In this document: piece after piece, positions 13,795 through 19,604 of the stretch
Layout of the letters: every line of letters begins with the position of its first letter
Position numbering within the stretch: the stretch's first letter is position 1
Source: Thermoplasmata archaeon
GTDB taxonomy: Archaea > Thermoplasmatota > Thermoplasmata > Thermoplasmatales > GCA-001856825
Reading direction: 5' to 3'
DNA length: 64,000 nucleotides
Assembly (NCBI GenBank): GCA_021797915.1
Contig: JAJZYT010000001.1
Location: 16,473 to 80,472, forward strand
Program-made: the position numbers and the translations under genes
Notes under the pieces: generated by a model
Databases searched by the model: none
What the model was told of the DNA's origin: nothing
The model's input: the letters and a program-made list of their open reading frames with translations, nothing else

Positions 13795-14454
13795 ATGGTA
13801 AAACTAACCTGGTATGGCCATGCCGCGTGGCAGATTGATTTTAACGATGCCACCGTGGTGGTCGATCCGTTTCTGAACAATAATCCAAAATCACCCATAA
13901 AGGCAGAAAATCTGAAAAAAGTGGATTTTGTGATAGTGACCCACAACCACGATGACCACCTTGGAGATGCGTTCGAAATTACCAAGAACAAGGGTGCCAA
14001 ACTGATATCGATGTTTGAAAACGTTCTCCCAGGTTCAGAGAAAGGCATACCCGACGAAAACCTGGTAGGAATGAACATTGGCAACCAGGTAAACTTTGGT
14101 AAGATCAAGGTTGGTCTGGTTCCTGCGGTACACAGTGGGAACTGTGCAGGAGCTGTGATAACGGGGGACGGAGTAACAATTTATCACGCAGGGGATACTG
14201 GACTATTCGGAGACATGAAACTTATAGGCCAGATGTACAAACCAAAGGTCTCACTGCTGCCAACGGGGGGATTCTTCACGATGGGACCGAAAGAGGCGGC
14301 GATGGCAGCAAGGATGATCGGGTCAGAAATCGTCATGCCTATGCACTATGGCACATTCCCACCAATTGACTCGAATCCAAACGAGTTTCGCGATGCGCTG
14401 GGAGACGAGTTCAAGGTTCCAATTATGAAACCTGGAGAGTCATTCATAGTATAA
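13795..14454 (+). CDS. Metal-dependent hydrolase, UPF0173 metallo-beta-lactamase fold
   Basis: A 219-residue protein with W-Y-G-H-A-A-W at 6-12, metal motif THNHDDH at 49-55, HAGDTG near 137 and M-P-M-H-Y-G-T-F-P near 182. These are the markers of the UPF0173 group of metallo-beta-lactamase-fold hydrolases. The natural substrate of this group is not established; relatives of the fold act on N-acyl phospholipids, lactones or nucleic acids. A purine-rich GAGAGGAAAAAGA precedes the start, one of the few visible ribosome-binding-like sites here. A TATA-like AAATATTTATC lies further upstream. Confidence 0.88.
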   Translation: MVKLTWYGHAAWQIDFNDATVVVDPFLNNNPKSPIKAENLKKVDFVIVTHNHDDHLGDAFEITKNKGAKLISMFENVLPGSEKGIPDENLVGMNIGNQVNFGKIKVGLVPAVHSGNCAGAVITGDGVTIYHAGDTGLFGDMKLIGQMYKPKVSLLPTGGFFTMGPKEAAMAARMIGSEIVMPMHYGTFPPIDSNPNEFRDALGDEFKVPIMKPGESFIV

Positions 14455-14480: not shown

Positions 14481-15440
14481 TTGATTTCCTATTCAGATGT
14501 GCCCACGGAAAACTATCTCGGTTTCGACATTGGAGGAACAAAGATCACTGCAGTACTTGCATCGAGCGAAGGTCGAGTGAAGAAAAGATTAGAAGTTAAG
14601 ACGAGGAAGTTCAGAGGGGTAGCAGAACTAATCGACCAGATACAGGTGACAGGAAAACAGTTTGACCATTTTGATGAAGTAGGCGTCATATTCCCCGCAC
14701 CTATTTCTAACAGTGGTATCTCATTAACTGCACCCAACCTCATCGGATGGGATGAAGTCAACATTCGGAAAAGGTTGAAGCAGATCTTTCACAGAGAAGT
14801 GTTCATAGAGAATGATGCTACTGCCCAAGCTATATCCGTCAAACTTTTTGACAAGGGAAAGAAGTACAGGAACTATGTCTATCTCGTTGTGGGGACAGGA
14901 ATTGGAGGAGGGATATTTTTCAACAATGAAGTCTACAGGGGTGGAAATGGATACGCAGGGGAGCTCGGACACACGGTAGTACTCGCAAATGGCCCACTAT
15001 GTGGTTGCGGTCGGAGGGGCTGCATAGAATCTCTTGCCTCCGGGCGGTCGCTCGCCAGGAGAGCAATTGAAAACTCCAAAGAAGTAAGGAACTCCCCATT
15101 CTTATCTTCTATACCGCTAGAAAGGATTTCGGCCGAGGATATTTTTAGCGGGCGAAAACTCGGAGACCATTTCTGCACTTTTCTGGTGGATGAAACGGTG
15201 TATTACCTATCTGTAGCTATAGCCAACTACGTAAATGAGTTTGACCCAGAGGCCATATTTCTGGGGGGAGGCATGATGAAAAATGACCCTGCGTTTGTGT
15301 CAGAACTAAAGGATGCAGTGGACAATGAGCTCGGGAAGTATTACAGAGACGTTCCTATTATGAGGGTTGCGGACAGAACAGTAGAATTGGCCCCGATAGC
15401 ACTTCCAATCTACGAAACAATGAAACGAAAAAAGAACTGA
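14481..15440 (+). CDS. ROK family sugar kinase (glucokinase-like)
   Basis: Phosphorylates a hexose or related sugar, or acts as a ROK regulator-like kinase. The 319-residue protein has phosphate-1 motif D-I-G-G-T-K, E-N-D-A-T-A-Q-A with the catalytic Asp, phosphate-2 GTGIGGGIF, and the ROK zinc site CGCGRRGCIES near 176-186. No DNA-binding domain is present, so a kinase is favoured over a repressor. The start is TTG at 14481 or GTG at 14499; the latter gives a more typical N-terminus. It sits just before the gluconate dehydratase cluster, which suggests glucose or a derived acid as substrate. Confidence 0.85.
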   Translation: MISYSDVPTENYLGFDIGGTKITAVLASSEGRVKKRLEVKTRKFRGVAELIDQIQVTGKQFDHFDEVGVIFPAPISNSGISLTAPNLIGWDEVNIRKRLKQIFHREVFIENDATAQAISVKLFDKGKKYRNYVYLVVGTGIGGGIFFNNEVYRGGNGYAGELGHTVVLANGPLCGCGRRGCIESLASGRSLARRAIENSKEVRNSPFLSSIPLERISAEDIFSGRKLGDHFCTFLVDETVYYLSVAIANYVNEFDPEAIFLGGGMMKNDPAFVSELKDAVDNELGKYYRDVPIMRVADRTVELAPIALPIYETMKRKKN

Positions 15441-15525
15441 CTTTAGGATCTTCATATATCTGTACAGCGACATTGAGTGCCATGGAGTGAGAAATGTTTT
15501 TAGCCATATTTCTATGAATAGCCAT

Positions 15526-16704
15526 ATGTCGAAAATAAAAGATATAGAGATATTGGAGTTGGGAGAGGAAGGAGAGAAGTCCAGTCCTTGGAGTTCCACA
15601 ATTCTTGTCCTTAGGCTCATAACAAGCGATGGGGAGATGGGTTATGGTGAGGCCCCAACTACATTGATGACTCGACCTGTTTATGAGGAAATGAGGGAAG
15701 TTGGAAGAATATTCCTTAACAAAGAAGTTGATGATATTAGGAAAAACTACCTTGAATTTTACAAGCACTCCTTCTATCTGCCTGTATCTATGGAATCAAC
15801 CGCCGCCCTAAGTGCATTTGAGATAGCATCCTGGGACATAGTGGGCAAACAATATGGGGCTCCTATCTACAATCTACTGGGAGGAAGGGTCACGGAAGAT
15901 GTAAGAGCTTATGCAAACGGCTGGTACGACGAATGCATAACCCCCCAAGACTTCCTGACCAAGGCAAAGGAAGTAGAAAGGATGGGGTTCACTGCAGCAA
16001 AGTTTGACCCATTTGGGCCAAATTATGACAAGATAGATGAAAAGGGGGTCGAAAAGGCGAGAAAGATAATTGAGACCCTAAAGGAGAAAACGAAATTGGA
16101 TCTTCTCATAGAGTGTCACGGGAGATTTTCTGCGAATTCTGCTATCAGGATGGCAGAGGGAATCGAGGACCTTGACCCATTTTTTGTGGAGGAACCAGTT
16201 CATCCAGATCAGATTACCGGTTTGAAGAGACTCAGGGAGAGGACGGATGTGAGGATAGCACTTGGCGAGAGAGTTCTGAACAAGAATCTATTCCTGCCAT
16301 ACTTTACATCAGACTTGGTAGACGTTATTCAGCCGGATGTAACAAACGTCGGGGGAATAATACAGGGCAAAGAATCAGCCATTCTGGCCGATTCGTTTGG
16401 AGTGGAAGTAGCTTACCATAATGCATTCGGACCAATTCAAACCGCAGCCACACTCCACCTAGATTACAGCATATCGAATTTTCTGATCCAGGAGAGCTTC
16501 GAGAAATTCTGGCCTAAGTGGAAGAAGGGGCTGGTCAAGTCAGGATACAATCTGGATGATGGACATTTCTCCCTGAGCGGGAAACCAGGCCTGGGGATTG
16601 AGATTGATGAGAAGATTATCGACACCTACAAGACACAAAGAATGGAACCATTCAACCCGAATGAACCTCCTTGGGTAGTCAAAGGAACATTCAAAGCAAG
16701 GTGA
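15526..16704 (+). CDS. D-gluconate dehydratase (enolase superfamily)
   Basis: Dehydrates D-gluconate (and probably D-galactonate) to 2-keto-3-deoxy-sugar acid, the committing step of the non-phosphorylative Entner-Doudoroff pathway. The 392-residue chain follows the Sulfolobus gluconate dehydratase closely from start to end. It has Y-A-N-G-W-Y, A-A-K-F-D-P-F-G-P, I-E-C-H-G-R-F-S-A-N-S-A, VEEPVHP, ALGERV, QPDVTNVGG, A-Y-H-N-A-F-G-P-I-Q and a closing W-V-V-K-G-T. These give the acid/base Lys and the three acidic metal ligands. The ATG at 15526 is chosen because it matches the family N-terminus; the frame is open back to a GTG at 15487. The stop overlaps the next gene's start. Confidence 0.93.
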   Translation: MSKIKDIEILELGEEGEKSSPWSSTILVLRLITSDGEMGYGEAPTTLMTRPVYEEMREVGRIFLNKEVDDIRKNYLEFYKHSFYLPVSMESTAALSAFEIASWDIVGKQYGAPIYNLLGGRVTEDVRAYANGWYDECITPQDFLTKAKEVERMGFTAAKFDPFGPNYDKIDEKGVEKARKIIETLKEKTKLDLLIECHGRFSANSAIRMAEGIEDLDPFFVEEPVHPDQITGLKRLRERTDVRIALGERVLNKNLFLPYFTSDLVDVIQPDVTNVGGIIQGKESAILADSFGVEVAYHNAFGPIQTAATLHLDYSISNFLIQESFEKFWPKWKKGLVKSGYNLDDGHFSLSGKPGLGIEIDEKIIDTYKTQRMEPFNPNEPPWVVKGTFKAR

Positions 16705-17324
16705 TTCAATTGCACATATATGACCTGTCGGTCCCGCTTGAGAAACACACACCATATTTTAAGGGTGATCCGGTGCCCCTAATTGAACAGTACAAGACAA
16801 TAGAGAGGGATGGATACAACATAAAGTCACTGACCATTGGAACTCATACGGGGACTCACCTGGATGCACCGGCGCACTTCATAAAGGGAGGGAAGACCAT
16901 AGATCAACTGGATCTGTCAGATCTCAGGGGATCCGGAACATGCATTTCTTACGACCCATCGGCAAAGATAGTGTTGCCTGAGAAACACCACGAGATAATC
17001 CTCCTGTACACTGGATATAATACGAAATGGAGTACTTACGGTACTTTTGAGAATTTTACTTACATAAACAAGGAAGATGCAGAGACCCTCAGAGAATACG
17101 GCGTGAAGCTCGTTGGAATAGATTCTCCATCTGCTGAAATTCAGGACTCCAAGGGGTTTGAGACTCATCATATCCTTCTCGGCAGTTTGATACCGATAGT
17201 TGAGAATCTTAACTCTTTGACACTGGCAAAATTAGTAAATCACACATTCTCAGTGGAGGTAATGCCAATCTTGGTAAATGGTGGAGATGGAGCTCCCGCA
17301 AGAGTAATCGCGATAGAGGAATGA
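16701..17324 (+). CDS. Cyclase-family metal-dependent hydrolase; candidate gluconolactonase
   Basis: A 207-residue member of the cyclase family (PF04199), which includes kynurenine formamidase and isatin hydrolase. The signature metal motif is H-T-G-T-H-L-D-A-P-A-H-F near 45-56. Further family features are the I-D-S-P-S-A-E segment and E-T-H-H-I-L-L near 148-154. The GTG at 16701 overlaps the gluconate dehydratase stop as GTGA, and the glucose dehydrogenase ATG overlaps its own stop. It is therefore translationally locked between the enzyme that makes gluconolactone and the enzyme that uses gluconate. I infer that it hydrolyses the lactone; a formamidase is the alternative. Confidence 0.85.
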   Translation: MIQLHIYDLSVPLEKHTPYFKGDPVPLIEQYKTIERDGYNIKSLTIGTHTGTHLDAPAHFIKGGKTIDQLDLSDLRGSGTCISYDPSAKIVLPEKHHEIILLYTGYNTKWSTYGTFENFTYINKEDAETLREYGVKLVGIDSPSAEIQDSKGFETHHILLGSLIPIVENLNSLTLAKLVNHTFSVEVMPILVNGGDGAPARVIAIEE

Positions 17325-18394
17325 GCATGAGAGCAATAACAACAGTTCCCCCAGGTGGAGGAGTCAAGCTGTCAGAGGTAAATGAAGAAAAGGGCGATGG
17401 TATCAGAGTAAGAACATTTAGAACTGGAATATGTGGTACGGACAAGGAGATTGCAGCAGGGAAGCTTTCTTTTGCAAGACCCGAAATTGGAAATTCATTG
17501 ATAATCGGACACGAGGCAGTGGGTGTCGTAACAGAATCAAACGGAAATTACGAATTCAAGGAAGGAGATATTGTGGTCCCTATGGTGAGAAGACCCGGGA
17601 GCTGCAGAATGTGCAGATTGGGAAGACAGGACTATTGTGAAGATGGAGAATTTGTGGAAGCGGGAATCAGGGGGAAGAACGGGTTCATGAGGGATGAATT
17701 CACAGAGGATCCGCGTTTTCTGGTCAGAGTGGAGAACAAGTCAATACAGGATCTCGCAGTGCTCACGGAGCCACTCAAGAATGTGATGAAGATGAAGGAA
17801 ATATTCCAATTTCTCAGAATGAGGATCCCATGGTATTGCGAGGATTCTACTCTCTCCTGCAAGAACATGTATGTGTTTGGAACTGGGACTGAGGGACTCC
17901 TTATCTCGATTGTTTTCAAAACGTTGGGCTTGAACGTGATTGAAGTCAACAGGCACCCTCTTGACGAGAATGTGATGAATTACTTGGAACGGAACAAGAT
18001 CGATTATCTAGATACTTCTTCAGAAGGTATTGACAAAAAGGTGAAGGATAAACCGATGGATGCTGCAATTGACGCGGTTGGTTCGATGGACGTACTGAGG
18101 GAGATTACCGATAATATCAGGAACAACGGAATAGCAATCATGTTCGGTACGAGCGGTCAACTTCCATCCTCAAACTTCGATGTGCTAGAGAACTTGGTGG
18201 ACAGAAATCTTACGATAGCTGGGAGTGTCGATGGAGCAAAAGCTCACTATTCCGATGCTGTGAAGTTCATTGAAACTCATGGCAAAGTAATGGAGATGGA
18301 TAAATTGATAACGGGAACCTATGAACCAGATAACTTGAAGATATTTATGGAGAAAGAAAAACAGGAGATAAAAAAGGTAATAGCTTGGTCGTGA
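17321..18394 (+). CDS. gdh: Glucose 1-dehydrogenase, zinc MDR type
   Basis: Oxidises D-glucose (and galactose) to the 1,5-lactone with NADP+ or NAD+, the first step of the archaeal Entner-Doudoroff pathway. The 357-residue chain resembles the Thermoplasma acidophilum enzyme. It has catalytic zinc ligands in G-I-C-G-T-D and G-H-E-A-V-G, and a structural lobe GSCRMCRLGRQDYC with three cysteines. The conserved E-A-G-I-R-G-K-N-G-F-M-R-D follows, then the dinucleotide-binding F-G-T-G-T-E-G-L, and N-R-H-P after beta-2, which suggests NADP use. Its ATG overlaps the upstream stop by four bases. Confidence 0.93.
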   Translation: MSMRAITTVPPGGGVKLSEVNEEKGDGIRVRTFRTGICGTDKEIAAGKLSFARPEIGNSLIIGHEAVGVVTESNGNYEFKEGDIVVPMVRRPGSCRMCRLGRQDYCEDGEFVEAGIRGKNGFMRDEFTEDPRFLVRVENKSIQDLAVLTEPLKNVMKMKEIFQFLRMRIPWYCEDSTLSCKNMYVFGTGTEGLLISIVFKTLGLNVIEVNRHPLDENVMNYLERNKIDYLDTSSEGIDKKVKDKPMDAAIDAVGSMDVLREITDNIRNNGIAIMFGTSGQLPSSNFDVLENLVDRNLTIAGSVDGAKAHYSDAVKFIETHGKVMEMDKLITGTYEPDNLKIFMEKEKQEIKKVIAWS

Positions 18395-18416
18395 TTTTCC
18401 CTCAAGGAGCTAAATC

Positions 18417-19604
18417 TTGAGGAGTGGACTTCGTAACATCTACATCTACACATTTTTCTACACATTTCTCCTTCTAAATCCAATATGGGTCCTGTATTTA
18501 CTGAATATCGGGTATAGTATTTTTTATGTTACTGTTCTGGACGTAGTCTTCTATCTCACAATAGTTCTTACAAGTATTCCAATGGGACGAATCACAGATT
18601 CCATTGGGAGGAAGAAGGCATTGTTCATTTCATCGATTCTAACGGGAGTGGGGATCATATTTTTTGGACTGTTCCAGTCATTCTTGGGCATCGCAATCAG
18701 CTATGTCGTATGGGGAATAGGTGTTGCAATAAATTCTGTTGCACTTGAGAGTGTGACGTATGAATACACGATGTCTCACGAAATGAAGTATCTGCAGATC
18801 ATCGGTGTTGTAAACTTTTTGTCAGCAATATCAGTTGCTATCGCATCCCTTCTAGGAGGTTATATCGGAGAGTACATAGGACTGAAAGTTGTTGTTATTC
18901 TGACCGCATTCGTAGTTCTGTCATCGTCACTTTTCACTCTAAAGTTGAAAGAGAGGAAGAGAGAACTCACCCGTAACAAGTTCTCGCTGAAGTTAGGGAA
19001 TTACATAAAGGATAGAAGAATCTTGAGCATAATTCTGCTCAGAGTCGCACTATTGCTCAACATCAACATGATGCTAATTTTCAAGCAGCCGTACTACAAG
19101 GAAATGGGAATAGATACCGGGATGATAGGAGTGATATTTTTTGTGGACGTGCTCCTGAGGGGCCTTGCTTCCCTGAACACGCACCGTTTGGCTTTCATTG
19201 CTAGGAATAGATTCTTCGCCATGCTGCTCTTCACTTCGCTCACCTTCTTCACCATCTACATCCCTGGCCTGATTGAAAATTGGATATCCCTTGTTTTCTT
19301 GATACTCAATTCGGTAATATTCGGATTCTATTCAAACATCCTGAGCGAGGAAGTCAATGAACTGGTGCCTTCAGAGGTCAGGGCAACCGTTCTGTCAGTG
19401 ATATTTCTCGTGAGTTCACTCCTTACTGCGGTCGCAGAACCATTCTTGGGTTATTCTGCGACGGTAATCGGACTTGAGAAGACACTGCTGATATTCAGCA
19501 TGATTTTCTTGATCTTGTCAACTCTAGCGATATTCATCCATATTATGGGGAGGGACAGCACTAGTTTCAAACTGGAACTAGACAAGAAGGGAAGTCAATC
19601 CTGA
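18417..19604 (+). CDS. MFS transporter, probable sugar or sugar-acid permease
   Basis: A 395-residue protein with about 12 hydrophobic segments. The MFS loop motif G-R-I-T-D-S-I-G-R-K-K-A-L-F lies between helices 2 and 3 (about 52-65). The start appears to be TTG, since no ATG or GTG is available in frame before the first helix. It lies 22 bases after glucose dehydrogenase, so it is probably in the same unit and may import the pathway's substrate. Specificity cannot be read from sequence. Its end overlaps the convergent DUF309 gene by 10 bases. Confidence 0.8.
   Translation: MRSGLRNIYIYTFFYTFLLLNPIWVLYLLNIGYSIFYVTVLDVVFYLTIVLTSIPMGRITDSIGRKKALFISSILTGVGIIFFGLFQSFLGIAISYVVWGIGVAINSVALESVTYEYTMSHEMKYLQIIGVVNFLSAISVAIASLLGGYIGEYIGLKVVVILTAFVVLSSSLFTLKLKERKRELTRNKFSLKLGNYIKDRRILSIILLRVALLLNINMMLIFKQPYYKEMGIDTGMIGVIFFVDVLLRGLASLNTHRLAFIARNRFFAMLLFTSLTFFTIYIPGLIENWISLVFLILNSVIFGFYSNILSEEVNELVPSEVRATVLSVIFLVSSLLTAVAEPFLGYSATVIGLEKTLLIFSMIFLILSTLAIFIHIMGRDSTSFKLELDKKGSQS

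Follow-up and report, generated by a model that had tools for sequence, protein, structure and literature searches.

A PF04199-family hydrolase as a predicted gluconolactonase in a glucose-oxidation gene cluster of Thermoplasmatales

The lactone-opening step of archaeal Entner-Doudoroff pathways often has no gene assigned to it, or is left to spontaneous hydrolysis. The hydrolase family PF04199 includes amidohydrolases such as kynurenine formamidase (KynB) and isatin hydrolase, but also trans-dienelactone hydrolase and the Mn-stimulated carboxylesterase MGS0169 (PMC5341072). In KynB, the metal ligands are H50, H54, D56, H161 and E173, with H60 as the base, together with S149, P148 and D198 (PMC4243253). 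The trans-dienelactone hydrolase of Pseudomonas reinekei MT1 and MGS0169 have a modified motif with Gln for the first two His residues (PMC5341072), and isatin hydrolases carry the signature GLQC/GLAS (PMC6117287). A first, sequence-only reading of the locus described here took the family to act normally on amide or formamide bonds and lactone opening to be a new activity; ester and lactone hydrolysis are already represented in PF04199 (PMC5341072), and since trans-dienelactone hydrolase and MGS0169 are members, lactone opening is not new chemistry for the family. What would be new, if the role proposed below holds, is the sugar-lactone substrate class, along with a replacement of SMP-30 in archaea. 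In the open-access literature that was searched, we found no sugar lactonase assigned to PF04199.

The locus belongs to a Thermoplasmatales assembly (1.32 Mb, 29 contigs, 89% complete) and lies in the window, i.e. the whole stretch of 64,000 nucleotides that was analyzed. A single forward-strand run of five ORFs (14481-19604) encodes a ROK kinase, a gluconate dehydratase (GAD), a PF04199 hydrolase (HYD), a glucose dehydrogenase (GDH) and an MFS transporter, and profile matches to the respective families confirmed that the arrangement first read from the sequence is real. A relative, the MAG 'Thermoplasmatales archaeon isolate IK54', encodes a 98%-identical HYD. The features are:

13795-14454, forward strand: UPF0173 metallo-beta-lactamase-fold protein (NCBIfam PRK00685, 235 bits)
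14481-15440, forward strand: ROK-family sugar kinase, glucokinase-like (PF00480, 204 bits; best solved relatives the ROK glucokinases 3vov and 3vgk)
15487-16704, forward strand: GAD, very likely a D-gluconate/D-galactonate dehydratase (enolase-superfamily domains; NCBIfam NF040790, 583 bits)
16698-16704, forward strand: Shine-Dalgarno-like AAGGTGA, overlapping the GAD stop and probably serving TTG 16710 (sequence; junctions of 14 orthologues)
16710-17324, forward strand: HYD, PF04199 metal hydrolase of 204 aa, predicted gluconolactonase (aldonolactonase) (PF04199, 2.6e-23)
16845-16877, forward strand: HTGTHLDAPAH metal/catalytic motif with H46, H50, D52 and H56 (invariant in 15/15 rows)
17327-18394, forward strand: GDH, Zn-dependent glucose 1-dehydrogenase (PF16912, 70.8 bits, cut-off 34.9)
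18417-19604, forward strand: MFS transporter, MFS_1 (PF07690, 98 bits; kept downstream in family f1 by synteny)

The best NCBIfam model for GAD, NF040790, describes the archaeal bifunctional gluconate/galactonate dehydratase, and as the score falls below the 750-bit equivalog cut-off, the name is very likely but uncertified by the model. GDH has its best solved-structure matches in the archaeal enzymes 3wic (Glucose 1-dehydrogenase, 1.4e-71) and 2cd9, and HYD scored 83.2 bits against PF04199 (cut-off 23.1), with no other Pfam family matched. The 4-base overlaps earlier described at the GAD-HYD and HYD-GDH junctions do exist in the window (GTGA at 16701 and ATGA at 17321), but are probably the product of mis-called starts. 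In the 98%-identical relative the overlapping GTG frame hits a stop at once (GTG ATT TAA), and the start codons conserved among 14 orthologues follow the stop of the gene before them by 1-8 nt, most often with GGTGA or GAGG, resembling a Shine-Dalgarno sequence, ahead of them. Given these junctions, HYD likely starts at TTG 16710 and GDH at ATG 17327, GDH having an alternative upstream ATG at 17321, and GAD probably starts at ATG 15526, as judged from orthologues that align from residue 12-14. The tight coupling of the cluster genes stands; the exact overlap falls away.

HYD orthologues (E below 1e-40) were found in 15 of the 117 genomes of the order that were searched, all in the Thermoplasmatales families f1 and f2, and the GAD and GDH orthologues of these families occur in the same 15 genomes. 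Within the 20 f1/f2 genomes, all those with GAD and GDH carry HYD in the cluster (15/15), four (G037, G001, G002 and G004) lack the three genes together, and in G032 HYD and GDH could not be scored because its GAD runs off the contig end. The adjacency to gad and gdh that had been suggested as a check thus holds in every f1/f2 genome that has the pathway. The 13 f1 clusters, in which the ROK gene is kept upstream, are not independent, since the flanking housekeeping genes are syntenic too, and the adjacency of HYD within f1 could partly reflect inherited synteny. The ROK gene is missing from the f2 clusters. One of these (G003) keeps the order GAD-HYD-GDH, followed by a convergent gene for a DHDPS-family aldolase (KDG-aldolase family); in the other (G005), GAD is convergent to a HYD-GDH pair, genes for a GH15 glucoamylase and a DHDPS aldolase adjoin HYD, and GH57 and glycogen-debranching genes lie on the other flank. 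The position of HYD between the GDH and GAD genes, found in 15 species in two arrangements, is far beyond chance, as it recurs in two families and once with an altered gene order. The strongest pointer to the function of HYD is this linkage, retained through rearrangement in a block of genes leading from glycogen to pyruvate.

The cluster is not found throughout Thermoplasmatales. In Thermoplasma and related genomes gad and gdh are separated, and many of these genomes have SMP-30 instead. The genome that we take to be that of Thermoplasma acidophilum has only an alpha-type PF04199 copy (see below), a gad far from gdh, and SMP-30. The aldolase family PF00701 (DHDPS/KDG-aldolase) is absent from the genome that holds the window (G000). 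A truncated pathway in this organism was rejected, as the assembly is incomplete and all other f1 genomes (14/14) carry PF00701, making an assembly gap the most likely cause.

Fourteen cluster HYDs form a single clade (support 100/97), recovered again as one group in a further comparison and known only from GAD/GDH clusters. Two further PF04199 clades of the order have other neighbors: clade alpha adjoins amino-acid permease, aminotransferase and aldehyde dehydrogenase genes, and clade beta adjoins citrate synthase, PIN-domain and electron-transfer-flavoprotein genes. No gad or gdh was found beside alpha or beta copies among the PF04199 loci of the order that were examined, and both clades were ruled out as HYD orthologues by tree and gene context.

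The AlphaFold model of HYD (pLDDT 95.3, 26 sequences) has the KynB/isatin-hydrolase fold (Foldseek 2.8e-18 to 4cog; TM 0.89 to 4co9) and also matches MJ0783, isatin hydrolase and others. The HTGTHLDAPAH motif picked out in the sequence-only reading is present, and the KynB ligands H50, H54, D56, H161 and E173 align to H46, H50, D52, H153 and E165 of HYD, with KynB H60, S149, P148 and D198 aligning to H56, S141, P140 and D193. Like the motif residues, the distal H153 and E165 as well as P140, S141 and D193 are invariant in 15/15 rows. Three pocket residues of KynB are swapped in HYD (W20 to F17, V40 to Y36, L158 to F150), and the HYD clade has a YTG..N..W motif in which Y100, T101, G102 and W107 are invariant. 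With catalytic residues invariant and pocket residues changed, the catalytic engine of HYD appears intact and its pocket is not that of KynB, though F or Y also stands at the W20 position in roughly 18% of the annotated KynBs.

The analysis shows how the genes are ordered and conserved, the modeled fold of HYD and which residues it keeps; from this we infer that HYD is a gluconolactonase (aldonolactonase) with a glucose-derived lactone as its main substrate, with a probability of roughly 0.77; that it acts on some sugar lactone is very probable. The original suggestion that HYD opens the lactone is supported by the co-occurrence and adjacency with gad and gdh, and the aldonolactonase role draws further support from the strictness of that linkage, the lack of SMP-30 and tryptophan dioxygenase, the altered pocket, the family's precedent for ester and lactone hydrolysis, the clade-alpha paralogues taken as controls and the sugar-acid parallels described below. 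HYD would then be a cytosolic, metal-dependent enzyme of a non-phosphorylative or semi-phosphorylative Entner-Doudoroff pathway, in which GDH would convert D-glucose (probably D-galactose too) into the 1,5-lactone, HYD would open the lactone ring, GAD would turn the free aldonate into 2-keto-3-deoxy-aldonate, and the DHDPS-family aldolase would cleave this product. For metal and catalysis we infer from the example of kynurenine formamidase that H46/H50/D52 and H153/E165 would bind a single divalent metal or a pair of them (Zn or Mn), that H56 would deprotonate a metal-bound water, and that the resulting hydroxide would attack the lactone carbonyl near S141.

Glucono-1,5-lactone also hydrolyzes spontaneously, so that a dedicated lactonase is not strictly required, and HYD might instead serve mainly another aldonolactone (D-galactono-, D-xylono- or L-arabinono-) or a broad range of them, with the glucose flux going partly through spontaneous opening. 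The bifunctional gluconate/galactonate dehydratase family to which GAD is closest would fit such a role, as would the presence of further PF04199 lineages in other sugar-acid clusters, but the glucoamylase, GH57 and glycogen-debranching genes around the f2 cluster point to glucose, and we consider this reading unlikely.

Of the parallel loci, L140 (4241-9858) encodes a sugar transporter, an SDR/epimerase-type dehydrogenase, a PF04199 protein, a SAF plus GD_AH_C (galactarate/altronate-type) dehydratase and an alcohol dehydrogenase, and L141, L142 and L147 resemble it by gene sizes. The PF04199 protein of this type, whose gene lies between those of the SDR/epimerase-type dehydrogenase and the dehydratase, is by gene context a candidate sugar lactonase, possibly for aldarolactones. 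An assignment of the L140 SDR as uronate dehydrogenase was not confirmed, none being named among the matches listed (60 structure hits) and the NCBIfam hits lying below cut-off. Locus L114 (2784-9999) combines an MFS transporter, a PF04199 protein, an HTH_10 regulator, an alcohol dehydrogenase, an L-rhamnonate-dehydratase-like protein and an FAA hydrolase close to 2,4-didehydro-3-deoxy-L-rhamnonate hydrolase (diketo-rhamnonate hydrolase). It is conceivable, at slightly less than even odds, that at least three Thermoplasmatales PF04199 lineages, those of the gluconate, galactarate/altronate-type and L-rhamnonate-type clusters, are the missing aldono- or aldaro-lactonases of sugar-oxidation pathways in archaea, as a non-homologous replacement of SMP-30.

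Other PF04199 contexts were also seen. In L134 (2827-7327), L137 and L138, which form a lineage related to the other parallels, the gene accompanies an enolase-superfamily sugar-acid dehydratase, a sugar transporter and an isocitrate/isopropylmalate/tartrate-type dehydrogenase, a pathway with no obvious lactone. In L143 (5844-8922), L144 and L146 its neighbors encode a 336-aa protein resembling ketol-acid reductoisomerase and an MFS transporter. Three loci from gut Clostridia MAGs (L051, L052 and L059) have a distant PF04199 gene after one for a ROK kinase, and in L059 genes for a GH2 glycosidase and a HAD phosphatase lie upstream.

It is improbable that HYD is a kynurenine formamidase or other amide/formamide hydrolase with no role in sugar oxidation despite its place in the cluster. 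An amide substrate may be compatible with the HYD residues alone, the active site being so KynB-like; KynB is both the nearest fold and the nearest characterized sequence match, and the only NCBIfam match is arylformamidase (TIGR03035), though at 93.4 bits against an equivalog cut-off of 223.05. The pocket substitutions speak against this, as does the strict co-occurrence with GAD and GDH, with linkage kept through rearrangement. In addition, tryptophan dioxygenase (PF03301) was found in 0/15 f1 genomes, and kynureninase (TIGR01814) gave nothing above cut-off in f1 genomes. Tryptophan-degradation genes next to the orthologues, the finding that the sequence-only reading had set against its own proposal, were looked for and are absent, and the kynurenine formamidase assignment was rejected on the absence of these pathway genes.

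The prediction of HYD as the gluconolactonase also bears comparison with other lactonase candidates. SMP-30 gluconolactonase (PF08450) was found in 0/20 f1/f2 genomes, including the one that holds the window, and gives strong matches of full or almost full length in 26 f6 genomes; as a point against the prediction, many f6 genomes have GAD and GDH without either a cluster-type HYD or SMP-30. Phosphogluconolactonase-like PF10282 was rejected, with none in the window's genome and the matches in relatives being mostly partial stretches inside larger frames. That the lactonase is instead the UPF0173 protein, with HYD serving another purpose, is most improbable, for although the UPF0173 gene precedes the ROK gene by 26 bases in the same orientation and distantly matches an ascorbate-6-phosphate lactonase model (30.8 bits), it occurs in 104/117 genomes, including families without GAD or GDH, and is missing from the f2 clusters, where HYD remains with GDH, so that it was judged a neighbor rather than part of the pathway. 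With SMP-30 and PF10282 absent, UPF0173 ubiquitous, tryptophan dioxygenase absent and no kynureninase above cut-off, HYD is the sole pathway-linked hydrolase.

A PF04199 sugar lactonase, if true, would fill a gap in the glucose pathway of uncultured acidophiles and correct a family-wide mis-annotation, such genes being readily called arylformamidase or cyclase. Compared with described systems, HYD shares with MJ0783 (2b0a), an uncharacterized archaeal PF04199 protein with a long branch and unsure tree position, 32% identity by fold alignment and the YTG..W motif. Isatin hydrolase (4j0n, 4m8d, 5nmp) is alike in superfamily, metal motif and ring-opening hydrolysis, but only 18-19% identical, and its GLQC/GLAS is replaced in HYD by the KynB-type I-x-E motif (IVE). 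Bacterial KynB (4co9, 4cog, 4cob) agrees with HYD in fold (TM 0.84-0.89), size and all metal and catalytic residues, whereas HYD has 25-28% identity to it, scores under the arylformamidase cut-off, has W20, V40 and L158 replaced, and lies in a sugar-oxidation context without tryptophan-degradation genes. Trans-dienelactone hydrolase and the esterase MGS0169, metal-dependent members of the same Pfam family, hydrolyze a lactone and esters, respectively, but have an aromatic-pathway or unknown substrate, while the motif of HYD is the classical one with His and its gene context is that of a sugar pathway. SMP-30/gluconolactonase is an unrelated beta-propeller, and HYD, which has no PF08450 match, is nevertheless predicted to catalyze the same reaction at the same position in the pathway.
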